DNA from: Calditrichia bacterium
GTDB taxonomy: Bacteria; Calditrichota; Calditrichia; RBG-13-44-9; J075
Assembly (NCBI GenBank): GCA_028284905.1
Contig: JANQQU010000080.1
Coordinates: 1 to 46,207, forward strand
Length of the DNA stretch: 46,207 bases
Reading direction: 5' to 3'
The notes under the pieces were generated by a model. That model saw only the letters and a list, made by a program, of their open reading frames with translations. It searched no databases and was not told the DNA's origin. Position 1 is the stretch's first letter. Each line of letters begins with the position of its first letter. Of this stretch, positions 695 through 8,926 are shown in pieces. The position numbers and the translations under genes are program-made.

Positions 695-1462
695 TTATTC
701 AGCGACTGTCATACCATTATCACAGTACACTTCAATCGCCTGGTGAATGAATACCGCTAAACCGGCCCGGTATTGTTCATAATGGGCAGTAAAGCGCGCG
801 TCTTCGGTATACATCTTACCTAATCCACGATACCGTTCTTCAGTAACTTCGTAGAAATGATTGAGTAATTTATGATGCATTGCGATTGCTTTCTGAACAT
901 GGCGATGATCAGGAGCGCAGTCCATTAGGTCTGCCAAAAGCAGATTCACTTCCTCGGTTTTCTGCTTATGATCATCCCAACCTTCCAGACCCATCGCCCG
1001 AATGCGCGCTTCCGTATCTGTTAGCGCTTTGTTACCCCAGCGGTCGCGTACTTCCTGGCGCATCGCCTCAATATCCTGATTTTCAAACCCTTTATAAATG
1101 TCCTGATCTTTCATGAGATCTTCCTTTCTATTTTCCAATTCATCAATGGTTTTATCCAGGGTGACTAATAACTGTTTTAGCCGCCCCAGTCTTTGCTGCA
1201 AAGCGTTTTTGTGAAATTGCAAGGCCTCCTGCAGATCGAAGTCGGGGTTGTTTACAATCTCCCCAATTTCCTGCAGGGAAAAATCCAGTTCCTTATAAAA
1301 AAGAATTTGTTGCAACTTCAGCAGTTCCGCTTTTCCATAATAGCGATAGCCTTTTTCTGAACGAAAAGAGGGATTAAGTAAACCAATCCGATCATAATGA
1401 TGCAGCGTGCGCACACTGATCCCGGCCATTTTCGCTAATTGTTTCACCGAATATTTAGTCAT
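695..1462 (-). CDS. MerR-family regulator with TipAS-like ligand domain
   Basis: The 255-residue protein has an N-terminal MerR winged helix (about 1-70: 'YSVKQLAKMAGISVRTLHHYDRIGLL', 'RYYG'), a long dimerisation helix (about 75-125) and a C-terminal TipAS-type domain (about 135-250, 'ALTDTEARIRAMG', 'RYRGLGKMYTEDARFTAHYEQ'). TipAL-type proteins bind thiopeptide or other drug-like ligands through this domain and twist a promoter with an over-long spacer into an active form. The start has GGAG six bases upstream. The gene diverges from the phasin operon. A promoter with a 19-bp spacer sits just upstream and suggests autoregulation. The ligand is not predictable. Confidence 0.88.
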   Translation of the reverse strand: MTKYSVKQLAKMAGISVRTLHHYDRIGLLNPSFRSEKGYRYYGKAELLKLQQILFYKELDFSLQEIGEIVNNPDFDLQEALQFHKNALQQRLGRLKQLLVTLDKTIDELENRKEDLMKDQDIYKGFENQDIEAMRQEVRDRWGNKALTDTEARIRAMGLEGWDDHKQKTEEVNLLLADLMDCAPDHRHVQKAIAMHHKLLNHFYEVTEERYRGLGKMYTEDARFTAHYEQYRAGLAVFIHQAIEVYCDNGMTVAE

Positions 1463-1484
1463 GACGTTCTCCAGCTTGAAAGAT

Positions 1485-1515
1485 AAGGTAAGCTATGACG
1501 TAAGGTGAGAGTCAA
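1485..1515 (-). promoter_or_regulatory. MerR-type promoter of the TipAS regulator (19-bp spacer)
   Basis: Read on the minus strand: TTGACT (1515-1510), a 19-bp spacer, then TACCTT (1490-1485). A 19-bp spacer is the hallmark of promoters activated by MerR proteins, so autoactivation is likely. The dyad expected inside the spacer is weak. What is clear is a direct repeat TAAGGT (plus strand 1484-1489 and 1501-1506, period 17). Confidence 0.5.
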
Positions 1516-1668
1516 CAGGAAAATTGAGAATTGCTAAAAAAGTTGAGATGAGCATTTGAAATAACATGTCGTGTCAGAAATAGATGACGCGTTGCATAAA
1601 AATTTTGCACTAGTTAAGATATTGTTAATGTTTGTCTTGTAGTTTTGAGTGCAAGGTTTTTTAATGCT

Positions 1669-1685
1669 TTTGACGCAGTGCGTTA
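1669..1685. promoter_or_regulatory. upstream operator copy O1 of the PHA operon
   Basis: TTTGACGCAGTGCGTTA, identical to the copy at 1703-1719 and 34 bp upstream of it. The core TGACGCA-G-TGCGTTA is a palindrome with one mismatched pair and contains the TGC/GCA words reported for PhaR targets. It lies upstream of the -35 box. Confidence 0.7.
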
Positions 1686-1694
1686 AAATTTTTC

Positions 1695-1723
1695 TTGACA
1701 AATTTGACGCAGTGCGTTATATT
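1695..1723 (+). promoter_or_regulatory. sigma70-type promoter of the phasin-phaR-phasin operon
   Basis: TTGACA (1695-1700), a 17-bp spacer and TATATT (1718-1723) give a near-consensus housekeeping promoter, with transcription expected to start near 1730. The spacer is almost entirely occupied by the operator copy at 1703-1719, so a protein bound there would exclude RNA polymerase. Confidence 0.8.
1703..1719. promoter_or_regulatory. operator copy O2 inside the promoter spacer
   Basis: Second exact copy of TTTGACGCAGTGCGTTA, lying between the -35 and -10 boxes and overlapping the first two bases of the -10. PhaR, encoded as the second gene of the same operon, is the obvious candidate ligand. 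That is inference from family knowledge: PhaR represses phasin genes and binds TGC-rich DNA. Confidence 0.72.
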
Positions 1724-1777: not shown

Positions 1778-2170
1778 ATGGCAACTCAAACCAAAACCGC
1801 CCCGACCGCATTTGAAAATTTACAAAAAGATGTAACCAGCAAGACCCGTGAAGTATGGCTGACCGGCCTTGGCATTCTTGCAACTGTAGAAGAAGAAGGT
1901 GGTAAGCTATTAAATAGTCTGGCTGAAACCGGTAAATCCCTCGTCGCGAAAGGCGAAGCTTTCGAACAGCGCGGTAAAGAATTTACCAACGACACTCGGG
2001 AAGATGTTTCCAGCAAAATGAATGAAACTGTCGAATTTGTCGAGCAAAAAGTTGGCGACGTCATGCACAATATCGGCGTGAATCCGAAAGAAGATGTAAA
2101 AACACTTTCCGACAAAGTTGACAAGCTGACCGCAACTGTTGAGAAATTAATCAAGAAAATGGATAAGTAA
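1778..2170 (+). CDS. phasin (PHA granule-associated protein), first copy
   Basis: A 130-residue protein of the PhaI/PhaF-type phasin family that coats polyhydroxyalkanoate granules. Supporting segments: 'KTREVWLTGLGILATVEEEGGKLL' (about 22-45), then an amphipathic, charged region, 'VEQKVGDVMHNIGVNPKEDV' (about 88-107) and a C-terminal leucine-zipper-like coiled coil 'LSDKVDKLTATVEKLIKKM'. An in-frame ATG exists at 1748, but AAGGAG (1766-1771) six bases before 1778 decides the start. It is the first gene of the operon, followed 45 bp later by phaR, and is a clear paralog of the third gene. No PHA synthase is present in the window. Confidence 0.85.
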   Translation: MATQTKTAPTAFENLQKDVTSKTREVWLTGLGILATVEEEGGKLLNSLAETGKSLVAKGEAFEQRGKEFTNDTREDVSSKMNETVEFVEQKVGDVMHNIGVNPKEDVKTLSDKVDKLTATVEKLIKKMDK

Positions 2171-2215: not shown

Positions 2216-2656
2216 ATGAACAGGCTGATCAAACGTTATGAAAATCGCAAATTATACGATACGGAAACCCGGAAATATGTCTCGCTGGAAGGTATTGCCG
2301 TGCTCATCCGGGAAGGTGTAGATATTCGCGTCATCGACAATACTAATGATGCAGATATTACCACCCAAATTCTTACCCAGGTGATTTTCGAAGAAGGCAA
2401 GCGCGGCCGCAATCCGCTCTCACAGGAAATGCTTCACGAAGTGATCCGCTGGGGAAATAACGTCCTCGATGATGGATTACAACAAGTCCGCCGCGGACTG
2501 GATCAACTGATACCCGCATCTCTCAGCGATATTTTTAGCGGAACGCATCAGGCGGAAATCAGTCGATTAAAGGATCGCATCGCTTCTTTGGAATCGGTGA
2601 TTGTAAAGCTGGGGGAGCAGTTAGCCGCCGATGATAATTCCGGTAAAGATAAATAA
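2216..2656 (+). CDS. phaR: PHA accumulation regulator PhaR
   Basis: The 146-residue protein begins with the PHB/PHA accumulation regulator DNA-binding domain (about 1-63: 'IKRYENRKLYDTETRKYVSLEGIA', 'VIDNTNDADITTQILTQVIFEE'). A variable middle and a C-terminal coiled coil follow (about 115-140, 'AEISRLKDRIASLESVIVKL'). In known systems PhaR represses phasin genes, binds nascent polymer or granules and thereby derepresses them. Ribosome site AGGAG is 7 nt upstream. It lies between two phasin genes in one operon whose promoter carries twin palindromes, which fits negative autoregulation. The family assignment is firm; the regulatory circuit is inferred. Confidence 0.92.
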   Translation: MNRLIKRYENRKLYDTETRKYVSLEGIAVLIREGVDIRVIDNTNDADITTQILTQVIFEEGKRGRNPLSQEMLHEVIRWGNNVLDDGLQQVRRGLDQLIPASLSDIFSGTHQAEISRLKDRIASLESVIVKLGEQLAADDNSGKDK

Positions 2657-2686: not shown

Positions 2687-3088
2687 ATGTCTACAGAAAA
2701 CACTAAAGAAAAGACTCAAAATGCTCAGGATGTTATCAGCGAAAAAGCCCGGGAAATCTGGCTGGCTGGTTTAGGCATTTTTTCTACTATCGAAGAAGAA
2801 GGTTCGAAACTTTTTAATAACTTTATGGAAAAAGGCAAAGAGCTGGAAAATAAAGGCGAAGAGTTCGAGAAACGCGCCAAAGAAAAAGCCGAGAAACTGC
2901 CCAGTCTGGAAGAAATTGGCAAATTCGTTGAAGACAAAGTAAATGTTGCTTTCGGTAAAATTGGCATCACTTCCCAGAACGAAGTTAGTGACCTTTCCGC
3001 GAAAGTTGATAAGTTGACCGACACGGTTGAGCAATTGGTGAAAAAAATGGAAGATGCTGCGAAATCCAGCAGTAAAACCAGCAAGTAA
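2687..3088 (+). CDS. phasin (PHA granule-associated protein), second copy
   Basis: A 133-residue phasin paralogous to the first one. It shares 'KAREIWLAGLGIFSTIEEEGSKLF' (about 22-45), the Lys/Glu-rich middle (about 50-75), 'VEDKVNVAFGKIGI' and the C-terminal coiled coil 'LSAKVDKLTDTVEQLVKKM', and ends in a Ser/Lys-rich tail. The true start is the ATG at 2687 with AAGGAG (2675-2680) six bases upstream, not the in-frame ATG at 2669. It is the last gene of the operon, 30 bp after phaR, and is followed by a strong terminator. Two different phasins in one operon may set granule number and size. Confidence 0.85.
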   Translation: MSTENTKEKTQNAQDVISEKAREIWLAGLGIFSTIEEEGSKLFNNFMEKGKELENKGEEFEKRAKEKAEKLPSLEEIGKFVEDKVNVAFGKIGITSQNEVSDLSAKVDKLTDTVEQLVKKMEDAAKSSSKTSK

Positions 3089-3114: not shown

Positions 3115-3147
3115 AAAACAGCGGCATTTTGTCGCTGTTTTTTTATG
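3115..3147 (+). terminator. intrinsic terminator of the PHA operon
   Basis: AAAACAGCG (3115-3123) pairs with CGCTGTTTT (3133-3141), followed by a run of T. It lies 27 bp after the second phasin stop. Confidence 0.85.
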
Positions 3148-3455: not shown

Positions 3456-5096
3456 ATGAAAATGAAGGTTACCTACAACACTTTCGCCATTTATAAAGGC
3501 GTCCCGCTGCGCTTGTATTTGCTCTACAAGCATGTCGCCGGTTTGTTAATAGGGGGATTGGTAGCCTATGTGCGTGGCCTGCCGCCATATCGCAAAAAAT
3601 GGTTTCGTTCTTTAATTCCCCGCCTCTCCGCTTTCTTCCTGCGTTGGTTTATCAAGCGGGAATTTCGTAAACAACCTTTTGAAGTCCAGTTACGCCGTCG
3701 CCTGGAAATGCTTGGCCCTACCTATGTAAAACTTGGGCAAATTATGGCGATTCGCGAGGATATTCTCCCGAAAAATGTCACCGAAGAGCTAAAGCAGCTA
3801 CTGGACAGTCTCCCCGAAGTGCCTTTTGAGGTGATCCGGGAAACGATCGAGAAGAGCCTGGAAAAACCATTAAAGACCCTTTTTCTCGATATCAAGAAAA
3901 AACCGTTGGGGTCTGCATCCATCGGGCAGACCCATCGCGCGACCAGCTATCACGGTAAACCGGTTGTTATAAAAGTGATTAAACCGGGGATACGGGATAC
4001 GATTTTGTCCGATCTGAAACTACTGCAGATTCTCGGCGGTTTTCTGGAAATGATTCTCTCCCGTTATCAACCGAAAGTCATTATCGAGGAGTTCTGCCGC
4101 TACACCCGGAAGGAAATCGATTTAACCTACGAAGCGGATCATGCGGAAATTTTTGCCGCGAACTTCCGGGATCATCCTAATGTCGCTTTTCCGAAAATTT
4201 ACCGGGAACTAAGTTCTACCGATGTTCTCTGCATGGAATTCTTCGACGGATTTAAGCCGAATACGCCGCAGATATTCGAATTAAGCGATGCCGAACAGCA
4301 ACAGGTGATCGATGTCGGGGTGGAAACGATTATTAAGATGCTTTACGAAGACGGCTTCTTTCATGCGGACCTGCATGCCGGGAATTTGATCATTCTGCCC
4401 GGACCGAAAATCGCATTTATTGATGTTGGTATGGTTGGCCGCTTTGAAGAAAAAGTAAAAAAGCACATGTTTTACTATTTCTACTCACTGGTCAATGGGG
4501 ACATTGAGGGTGTTTCTAAGCATCTCCTCTCGATGGCGAAAGTAACCAGCCAAAGCGATGTGCCCGGCTTTAAGCGGGCGGTCAGCGAGCTTTTTCGCCG
4601 CTATTTGATTATGTCTTCCCACGGCACATTTAGCCTGGCGGAATTGATACTTCATTCCCTCTCCATTGGTGGCGAATTTCGGATCTTTTTCCCGGTAGAA
4701 ATGACCTTGATGGTAAAAGCACTGGTAACCTTTGAAGGTGTCGGACAATATCTCGCACCGCATCTCGATATACCGGAACTCTCCCGTAAGCATATGCAAA
4801 ATATATATTTACGCCGCTATCACCCCAAGAACCTCATCGAGCAAATCATTCGCGGTATGCCGGAGCTGGTAGATACACTGGTTCAAATGCCCAAATTAGT
4901 ATCGGATGGTTCCCGCTCTCTGGAACAGTTCCTCACCGAAGGCACCGGGGAAAATCCCCTGGCCGGTCTAAAAAGCAGCATTATGGCCGGCGCTATGGTC
5001 ATTGCCGGTGTGTTGGCTTTTGTACAGGATGCGCATCCGATTATGTGGATTGCGCTCTTTGTTTCCAGTCTAATTTTTTACTTTTGGGGAAAATAA
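3456..5096 (+). CDS. UbiB/ABC1-family atypical kinase (AarF-like)
   Basis: The 546-residue protein shows all hallmarks of the UbiB family: the KxGQ motif (KLGQ, 92-95), the Ala-rich nucleotide loop 'LGSASIGQ' (151-158), Lys173, the catalytic 'HADLHAGN' (303-310) and 'FIDVGMVG' (321-328, metal-binding Asp). Two hydrophobic C-terminal segments (about 505-545) anchor it in the membrane, as in UbiB/Coq8. Family members support ubiquinone or other isoprenoid-lipid metabolism through ATPase activity. No quinone biosynthesis genes are adjacent. It follows the PHA operon but is separated from it by a terminator and a repeat. The ribosome site is weak (AAAGAGAAAG). The family is certain; the substrate is not known. 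Confidence 0.9.
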   Translation: MKMKVTYNTFAIYKGVPLRLYLLYKHVAGLLIGGLVAYVRGLPPYRKKWFRSLIPRLSAFFLRWFIKREFRKQPFEVQLRRRLEMLGPTYVKLGQIMAIREDILPKNVTEELKQLLDSLPEVPFEVIRETIEKSLEKPLKTLFLDIKKKPLGSASIGQTHRATSYHGKPVVIKVIKPGIRDTILSDLKLLQILGGFLEMILSRYQPKVIIEEFCRYTRKEIDLTYEADHAEIFAANFRDHPNVAFPKIYRELSSTDVLCMEFFDGFKPNTPQIFELSDAEQQQVIDVGVETIIKMLYEDGFFHADLHAGNLIILPGPKIAFIDVGMVGRFEEKVKKHMFYYFYSLVNGDIEGVSKHLLSMAKVTSQSDVPGFKRAVSELFRRYLIMSSHGTFSLAELILHSLSIGGEFRIFFPVEMTLMVKALVTFEGVGQYLAPHLDIPELSRKHMQNIYLRRYHPKNLIEQIIRGMPELVDTLVQMPKLVSDGSRSLEQFLTEGTGENPLAGLKSSIMAGAMVIAGVLAFVQDAHPIMWIALFVSSLIFYFWGK

Positions 5097-8724: not shown

Positions 8725-8822
8725 GAAATCACCTCTTGCTAAAATTCTCTTGTTTTTCATCCTTTTCATCACATAAGAGCGCAGCCATTGTCAATTATTC
8801 TCATGAAGCTCTAAATATTTTT

Positions 8823-8926
8823 CAGTTTACAGTTATCAGTGATCAGTTTACAGTTATCAGTTAACACTTTAATGCTATTGAAAACTGCTAGCCGTACAGT
8901 GACAACTGTTCACTGTCAACTGTAAA
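8823..8926. repeat. CAGT-rich intergenic repeat, family C
   Basis: CAGTTTACAGTTATCAGT occurs twice in tandem (8823-8840 and 8844-8861, period 21). About 40 bases later the same words return inverted (ACAACTG, CACTGTCAACTGTAAA, 8901-8926). The whole fits into the 288-bp space before the next gene and would fold into imperfect stems. Related words are seen at 637-670 and 28300-28325. Confidence 0.65.

Follow-up and report, generated by a model that had tools for sequence, protein, structure and literature searches.

A known PhaR regulator is that of Sinorhizobium meliloti (PhaR/AniA), for which repression of phasin genes and titration of PhaR by the inclusion have been demonstrated in that species (PMC12542648). 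Its DNA motif, WNWD2NYGCRNYGCRNH2WNW, is backed by gel shifts and mutation, and phaP1 and phaP2 each carry two copies of the PhaR box that flank the -35 element (PMC12542648). In Ralstonia eutropha H16 the PhaR sites are palindromes of degenerate sequence built around one central base, and in Ralstonia PhaR can also act as an activator, as it does for phaP3 (PMC12849132). A regulator of similar logic is found in Rhodococcus jostii RHA1, where the droplet-held protein MLDSR controls both itself and the coat protein MLDS (PMC5504291). Our search of the open-access literature returned nothing relevant on phasins or PHA in Calditrichota, or on PhaR without a synthase. An initial reading of the locus made from the DNA letters alone (the sequence-only reading) had placed this type of control in a lineage where it is not commonly described, and we likewise found no report of it for Calditrichota.

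The window analyzed here is a 46,207-nucleotide stretch from a Calditrichia bacterium. It contains a phasin-phaR-phasin operon on the forward strand that encodes a phasin of 130 amino acids (1778..2170; PF05597, E 6.8e-21), a PhaR-like regulator of 146 amino acids (2216..2656; PF07879 PHB_acc_N, E 2.9e-25) and a second phasin of 133 amino acids (2687..3088; PF05597, E 1.2e-24). The operon is followed by a likely intrinsic terminator on the same strand (AGCGGCATTTTGTCGCTGTTTTTTTA; 3120..3146), beyond which lies an ABC1/UbiB-like kinase gene (3456..5096, forward strand; PF03109). Upstream, a gene assigned by Pfam to a MerR-TipAS regulator is divergently oriented (695..1462, reverse strand). The host genome encodes one PhaR and two phasins, all at this locus. 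Both phasins match strongly to the PF05597/PHA_granule_1 family of PhaI/PhaF-type phasins (75.1 and 87.2 bits; cut-off 28.8), yet both stay under the TIGR01837 cut-off (61 and 68 vs 94.7 bits) and no PHA synthase was found in the genome.

Two exact copies of the 17-mer TTTGACGCAGTGCGTTA are located at 1669-1685 and 1703-1719, 34 bp apart from start to start with a gap of 17 bp, as the sequence-only reading had noticed. The palindrome itself, TGACGCA-G-TGCGTTA, measures 15 bp and has one arm mismatch, and the arms of the two sites are self-complementary at 8-9 of 10 positions across 21 bp. Accordingly, the predicted distal and proximal PhaR operators are taken as 1668..1688 (palindrome centre 1678) and 1702..1722 (centre 1712), neither being assigned to a strand. 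When the window was simulated 200 times with a second-order Markov model, no run contained a 17-bp repeat within 100 bp. Besides the operators, the real window has one such direct repeat, at 8822-8845 in a stretch with a period of 21 bp (8822-8865; TCAGTTTACAGTTATCAGT), which is unrelated to them. The best sigma-70-like match between 1400 and 3500 (11/12) is the promoter formed by TTGACA (1695-1700) and TATATT (1718-1723) with a spacer of 17 bp; it is placed upstream of the operon at 1695..1723 on the forward strand, also on the alignment of relatives. The second palindrome fills this spacer as originally described, except that its end overlaps the start of the -10 element by two bases (1718-1719) and it is not wholly between the hexamers.

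Both sites fit the S. meliloti PhaR box WNWDDNYGCRNYGCRNHHWNW at 21/21 positions. Elsewhere in the 46-kb window, this consensus has one further match at 1582-1602 (AGATGACGCGTTGCATAAAAA; no strand assigned), a weaker PhaR-box-like site and imperfect palindrome, missing from the sequence-only reading, whose centre is 86 bp upstream of that of the distal site. As in S. meliloti, the sites are palindromes with a single-base centre and a YGCRNYGCR core, and occur as paired copies at a phasin promoter (PMC12542648). Unlike S. meliloti, the genes are arranged as a phasin-phaR-phasin operon, no PHA synthase was found in the genome and PhaR has no detectable PHB_acc domain. The half-site is TTGTGCA/TATTGCA-like in S. 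meliloti and TRACGCA here (flanking T 90%, A 83%, C 88%); because of these differing flanks, the operator seen here is, as far as its letters can tell, a lineage 'dialect' of the same PhaR box. The sites also resemble those of R. eutropha H16 phaP1 in being palindromes with a single-base centre near a phasin sigma-70 promoter, but the latter are situated upstream of the -35 element and around the start rather than in the spacer, and R. eutropha is a PHA producer (PMC12849132). The window sites need three mismatches to fit the R. eutropha consensus YTKNTGCRNYGCANMAR, and at that tolerance the consensus is uninformative in the window (63 matches vs 61 expected).

The predicted PhaR operator pair is real and deeply conserved. 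A set of 60 genomes yielded ten PhaR-positive relatives, plus two distant ones, and paired palindromes are present upstream of the phaR/phasin operon in 10/10 of the PhaR-positive relatives. In an alignment anchored at the proximal site, the arrangement TTGAC-N5-[TRACGCAnTGCGTYA]-TAT is shared by nearly all (9/10 Calditrichota loci, in which the second site is 33-34 bp upstream). The distance up to the distal site is generally 32-34 bp, in one case 43 bp, and the flanks between and around the sites show no visible conservation. Within a relative the two copies are not identical, but the palindrome, the spacing and the promoter position are kept. A further scan covered 41 named PhaR loci from Calditrichota, KSB1, Rhodothermia/Balneolales, Acidobacteriota, Planctomycetota and Methylomirabilota; 42 PhaR loci were scored, counting as near-matches sites that agree with TRACRCAnTGYGTYA at 13/15 positions or more. 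There are 82 near-matches in 30,140 positions up to 750 bp upstream of phaR vs 11 in 374,985 positions elsewhere, an association that is partly by construction since the loci were selected by PhaR, a bias from which the genome-wide scans below are free. A -35 element at the exact offset is found in half of the loci (21/42, compared with 0.4% of random positions), including 9/10 in Calditrichota, 4/5 of KSB1 type and 5/7 in Acidobacteriota. The commonest pair spacing is 33 bp, and the logo from 54 core matches reads T-[GA]-A-C-G-C-[AG]-N plus its complement. Rhodothermia keep the palindrome, mostly outside a TTGACA/TATAAT spacer. Three KSB1-type loci (L069, L072 and L075) have extra operator copies about 160-230 bp upstream of phaR, which make up a complete pair in both L069 and L072 and adjoin a divergent acyltransferase-like gene in L075. 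Altogether, sites occur at phaR or phasin promoters in nearly all 42 loci, which bears out the clean operator sequence proposed by the sequence-only reading and places the site at the very genes of relatives where its absence was to have counted against that proposal.

The window PhaR has a clear PHB_acc_N DNA-binding domain (PF07879; 88.6 bits, cut-off 25), which is found in 35/35 members of our PhaR alignment. It scores under the cut-off of the NCBI PhaR equivalog TIGR01848 (90 vs 109.45 bits), as do two PhaR copies from synthase-positive genomes (106.9 and 70.7). The C-terminal PHB_acc domain (PF05233), which is part of canonical PhaR and is taken as polymer-binding, was not detected in the window PhaR and is present in 3/35 relatives, weakly. 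AlphaFold predicts the N-terminal domain (window 2216-2400) confidently, with a pLDDT of about 90, as beta-beta-beta-alpha-beta-alpha. A PDB fold search with this prediction gave no match at E <= 0.001, and a PhaR profile search for solved relatives returned only chance coiled-coil-like matches. Comparison of the PhaR tail with the phasin by hhalign found a common C-terminal heptad segment only (probability 68%), which is suggestive of possible hetero-oligomers but too weak to use.

Phasins and PhaR are classically linked to PHA, and the sequence-only reading had called the locus a PHA granule operon. However, neither a class I/II nor a class III PHA synthase was recognized above cut-off by PF07167 and TIGR01836 in the host and ten PhaR-positive Calditrichota relatives, and PF07167 found none in five KSB1-type genomes; the host genome is rated 100% complete, and many of the compared genomes are incomplete MAGs. 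The class III profile gives a short, generic alpha/beta-hydrolase match in the host (E 2.9e-4) and only short generic hydrolase matches in the other PhaR-positive Calditrichota, against E < 1e-140 in two synthase-positive genomes used as positive controls. A synthase-like match is present in 6/44 PhaR-positive genomes. Five of these genomes, all outside Calditrichota, carry class III-type synthases, and the sixth match (G081) is haloarchaeal in look. Among the genomes without a synthase match is that of a cultured isolate, Longimonas halophila KCTC 42399, which does have PhaR and an identical copy of the 15-bp site. In genome G081, a Salinivenus MAG, the PHA synthase lies beside haloarchaeal-looking phasin/PhaE-like genes (L106), and the region is probably archaeal contamination of the MAG.

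The conserved neighbors of phaR, grouped by clustering over all loci, are patatin-like phospholipase (20), ABC1 kinase (18), PlsC-like acyltransferase (11), HMG-CoA reductase (8 loci), LCAT/lipase-like esterase (8) and GMC oxidoreductase (5). The ABC1/UbiB-like kinase gene, which adjoins phasin or phaR in about 18 loci, is a conserved neighbor; kinases of the ABC1 family also occur in plastoglobules. WS/DGAT (wax-ester synthase) is encoded by 17/44 PhaR-positive genomes, the only genomes in which it was counted. Its distance from phaR is 2.3 kb in G007, and in G074 it is about 4.5 kb; WS/DGAT was sought in the host genome and is absent. The neutral-lipid-like character of the relatives' neighbor genes suggests a neutral-lipid inclusion. 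As no PHA synthase was found, the granule coated in the host is probably not bioplastic (PHA), with a neutral-lipid droplet as the likeliest alternative. As long as neither a polymer nor a synthase has been demonstrated, the host genome should not carry the PHA label.

The alternative that survives best accepts the operators and the regulator as proposed and takes the inclusion to be ordinary PHA made by an unrecognized or unassembled synthase, so that the locus would be a standard PHA switch. The class III-type synthases of the five PhaR-positive genomes speak for it, as does an operator pair in Methylomirabilota that has a phasin gene on one side and a class III phaC on the other. Given the completeness of the host genome, the performance of the positive controls and the neutral-lipid neighbors, we regard it as unlikely, though it deserves to be kept in mind.

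Scans of whole genomes bear on which protein recognizes the sites, for which we favor the PhaR-like protein. In the 8.55-Mb host genome, a search for the 17-mer proposed by the earlier reading found the exact sequence at this locus only; matches with up to three mismatches are at chance level (15 vs 20 for the reversed control), and the promoter-plus-site pattern with 2 mismatches revealed no convincing additional target. The two best 3-mismatch matches (contigs C19 and C73) fall within long reading frames of unrelated genes. A scan of 33 PhaR-positive genomes for the exact pattern TRACRCANTGYGTYA gave 33 occurrences, against none for the reversed control. Twenty-eight of the 33 sites are at phaR or phasin genes: 20 in phaR promoters, 7 at phasins away from phaR, with Rhodothermia among those having sites at phasin genes unlinked to phaR, and 1 in a phasin/phaC-type intergenic region. 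Two precede thiolase/FadB genes and 3 are elsewhere. In one KSB1 genome (G064, contig C444, L139), an operator pair with a TTGATT promoter is found ahead of a thiolase/FadB-like operon, whose FadB-like gene encodes an enoyl-CoA hydratase/3-hydroxyacyl-CoA dehydrogenase. Genome G053 has two further exact sites (L141, L142) near neither phaR nor phasin, one of which is a 34-bp pair with TTGACA ahead of a small membrane-protein-like ORF.

That 2/3 of the exact sites in G053 are away from phaR or phasin, and that PhaR binding at the sites is itself a prediction from sequence, would fit a different arrangement in which another, unlinked transcription factor for storage genes binds the sites and PhaR is merely a target. 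We consider this decidedly improbable. The core of the sites equals the proteobacterial PhaR box tested by gel shift and mutation (PMC12542648, PMC12849132), and phaR is the sole DNA-binding gene conserved across the PhaR loci. In the 60-genome set, PhaR-negative genomes of the same class show the site at chance level, with 3 exact matches that are all within unrelated genes (DnaJ-like, P-type ATPase-like and outer-membrane-protein-like).

MerR proteins act from promoter spacers, with operators between -35 and -10, and the adjacent, divergent merR-tipAS gene therefore offers another candidate binder. We rejected it as very unlikely: other PhaR loci have no merR and the sites persist there, the spacer of the phasin promoter is 17 bp whereas MerR targets typically have 19-20 bp, and merR has its own promoter (TTGACT-19-TACCTT; 1463-1520, minus strand) without the palindrome, which is consistent with MerR autoregulation. 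Least credible of all is that copy 1, the upstream one, represents a hairpin of terminator type, as which it does score with its T-run, or that the repeats, identical in the host, are a functionless local duplication, for the stem has a loop of 3, no forward-strand gene reads into this copy, and the copies of relatives diverge under a persisting architecture.

It is therefore the PhaR-like protein that we consider, with high confidence, to be the likely partner of the two palindromes, which would form an operator pair controlling the operon that encodes it. PhaR dimers would bind both sites, which are on nearly one face of the DNA (32-34 bp, about three helical turns) and would probably cooperate. 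A dimer within the -35/-10 spacer would block RNA polymerase, and both phasins and phaR itself would be repressed (autoregulation). When a hydrophobic inclusion forms, PhaR would be drawn to its surface, repression would be lifted and phasin would be made. Completion of the coat would then let free PhaR rise again. Binding, repression and titration are inferred by analogy with PhaR of S. meliloti and R. eutropha, and build on what was computed here: that the two sites are identical, where they lie in the promoter, how they are conserved, that they are confined to phaR/phasin promoters, and that they match the proteobacterial box. The surface-titration step is extrapolated, since the window PhaR is below the equivalog cut-off and lacks a detectable PHB_acc domain. 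Of the PhaR-controlled autoregulated switch originally suggested, the operator and autoregulation reading stands and the PHA part is not supported. The proposed logic is paralleled by MLDSR-MLDS (PMC5504291), purely as an analogy in function.

What remains puzzling is a conserved repressor-phasin switch in bacteria that are seemingly unable to make the polymer it supposedly senses. We tentatively propose, at somewhat less than an even chance, that Calditrichota, KSB1, Rhodothermia and some Acidobacteriota use a PhaR-phasin switch without PHA, in which PhaR senses neutral-lipid inclusions (wax ester, triacylglycerol or isoprenoid ester), the phasins coat them, and the TRACGCAnTGCGTYA operator can extend to fatty-acid oxidation genes (thiolase/FadB, as in KSB1 genome G064). 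This motif provides a sharp putative PhaR operator outside Proteobacteria that is usable for finding regulons in uncultured phyla. If the proposal is true, the control of PHA in Proteobacteria would be just one of the roles of a more ancient inclusion-sensing regulator. Should the inclusion prove to be a lipid droplet, phasins and PhaR would be a general inclusion-coating machinery rather than one specific to PHA.
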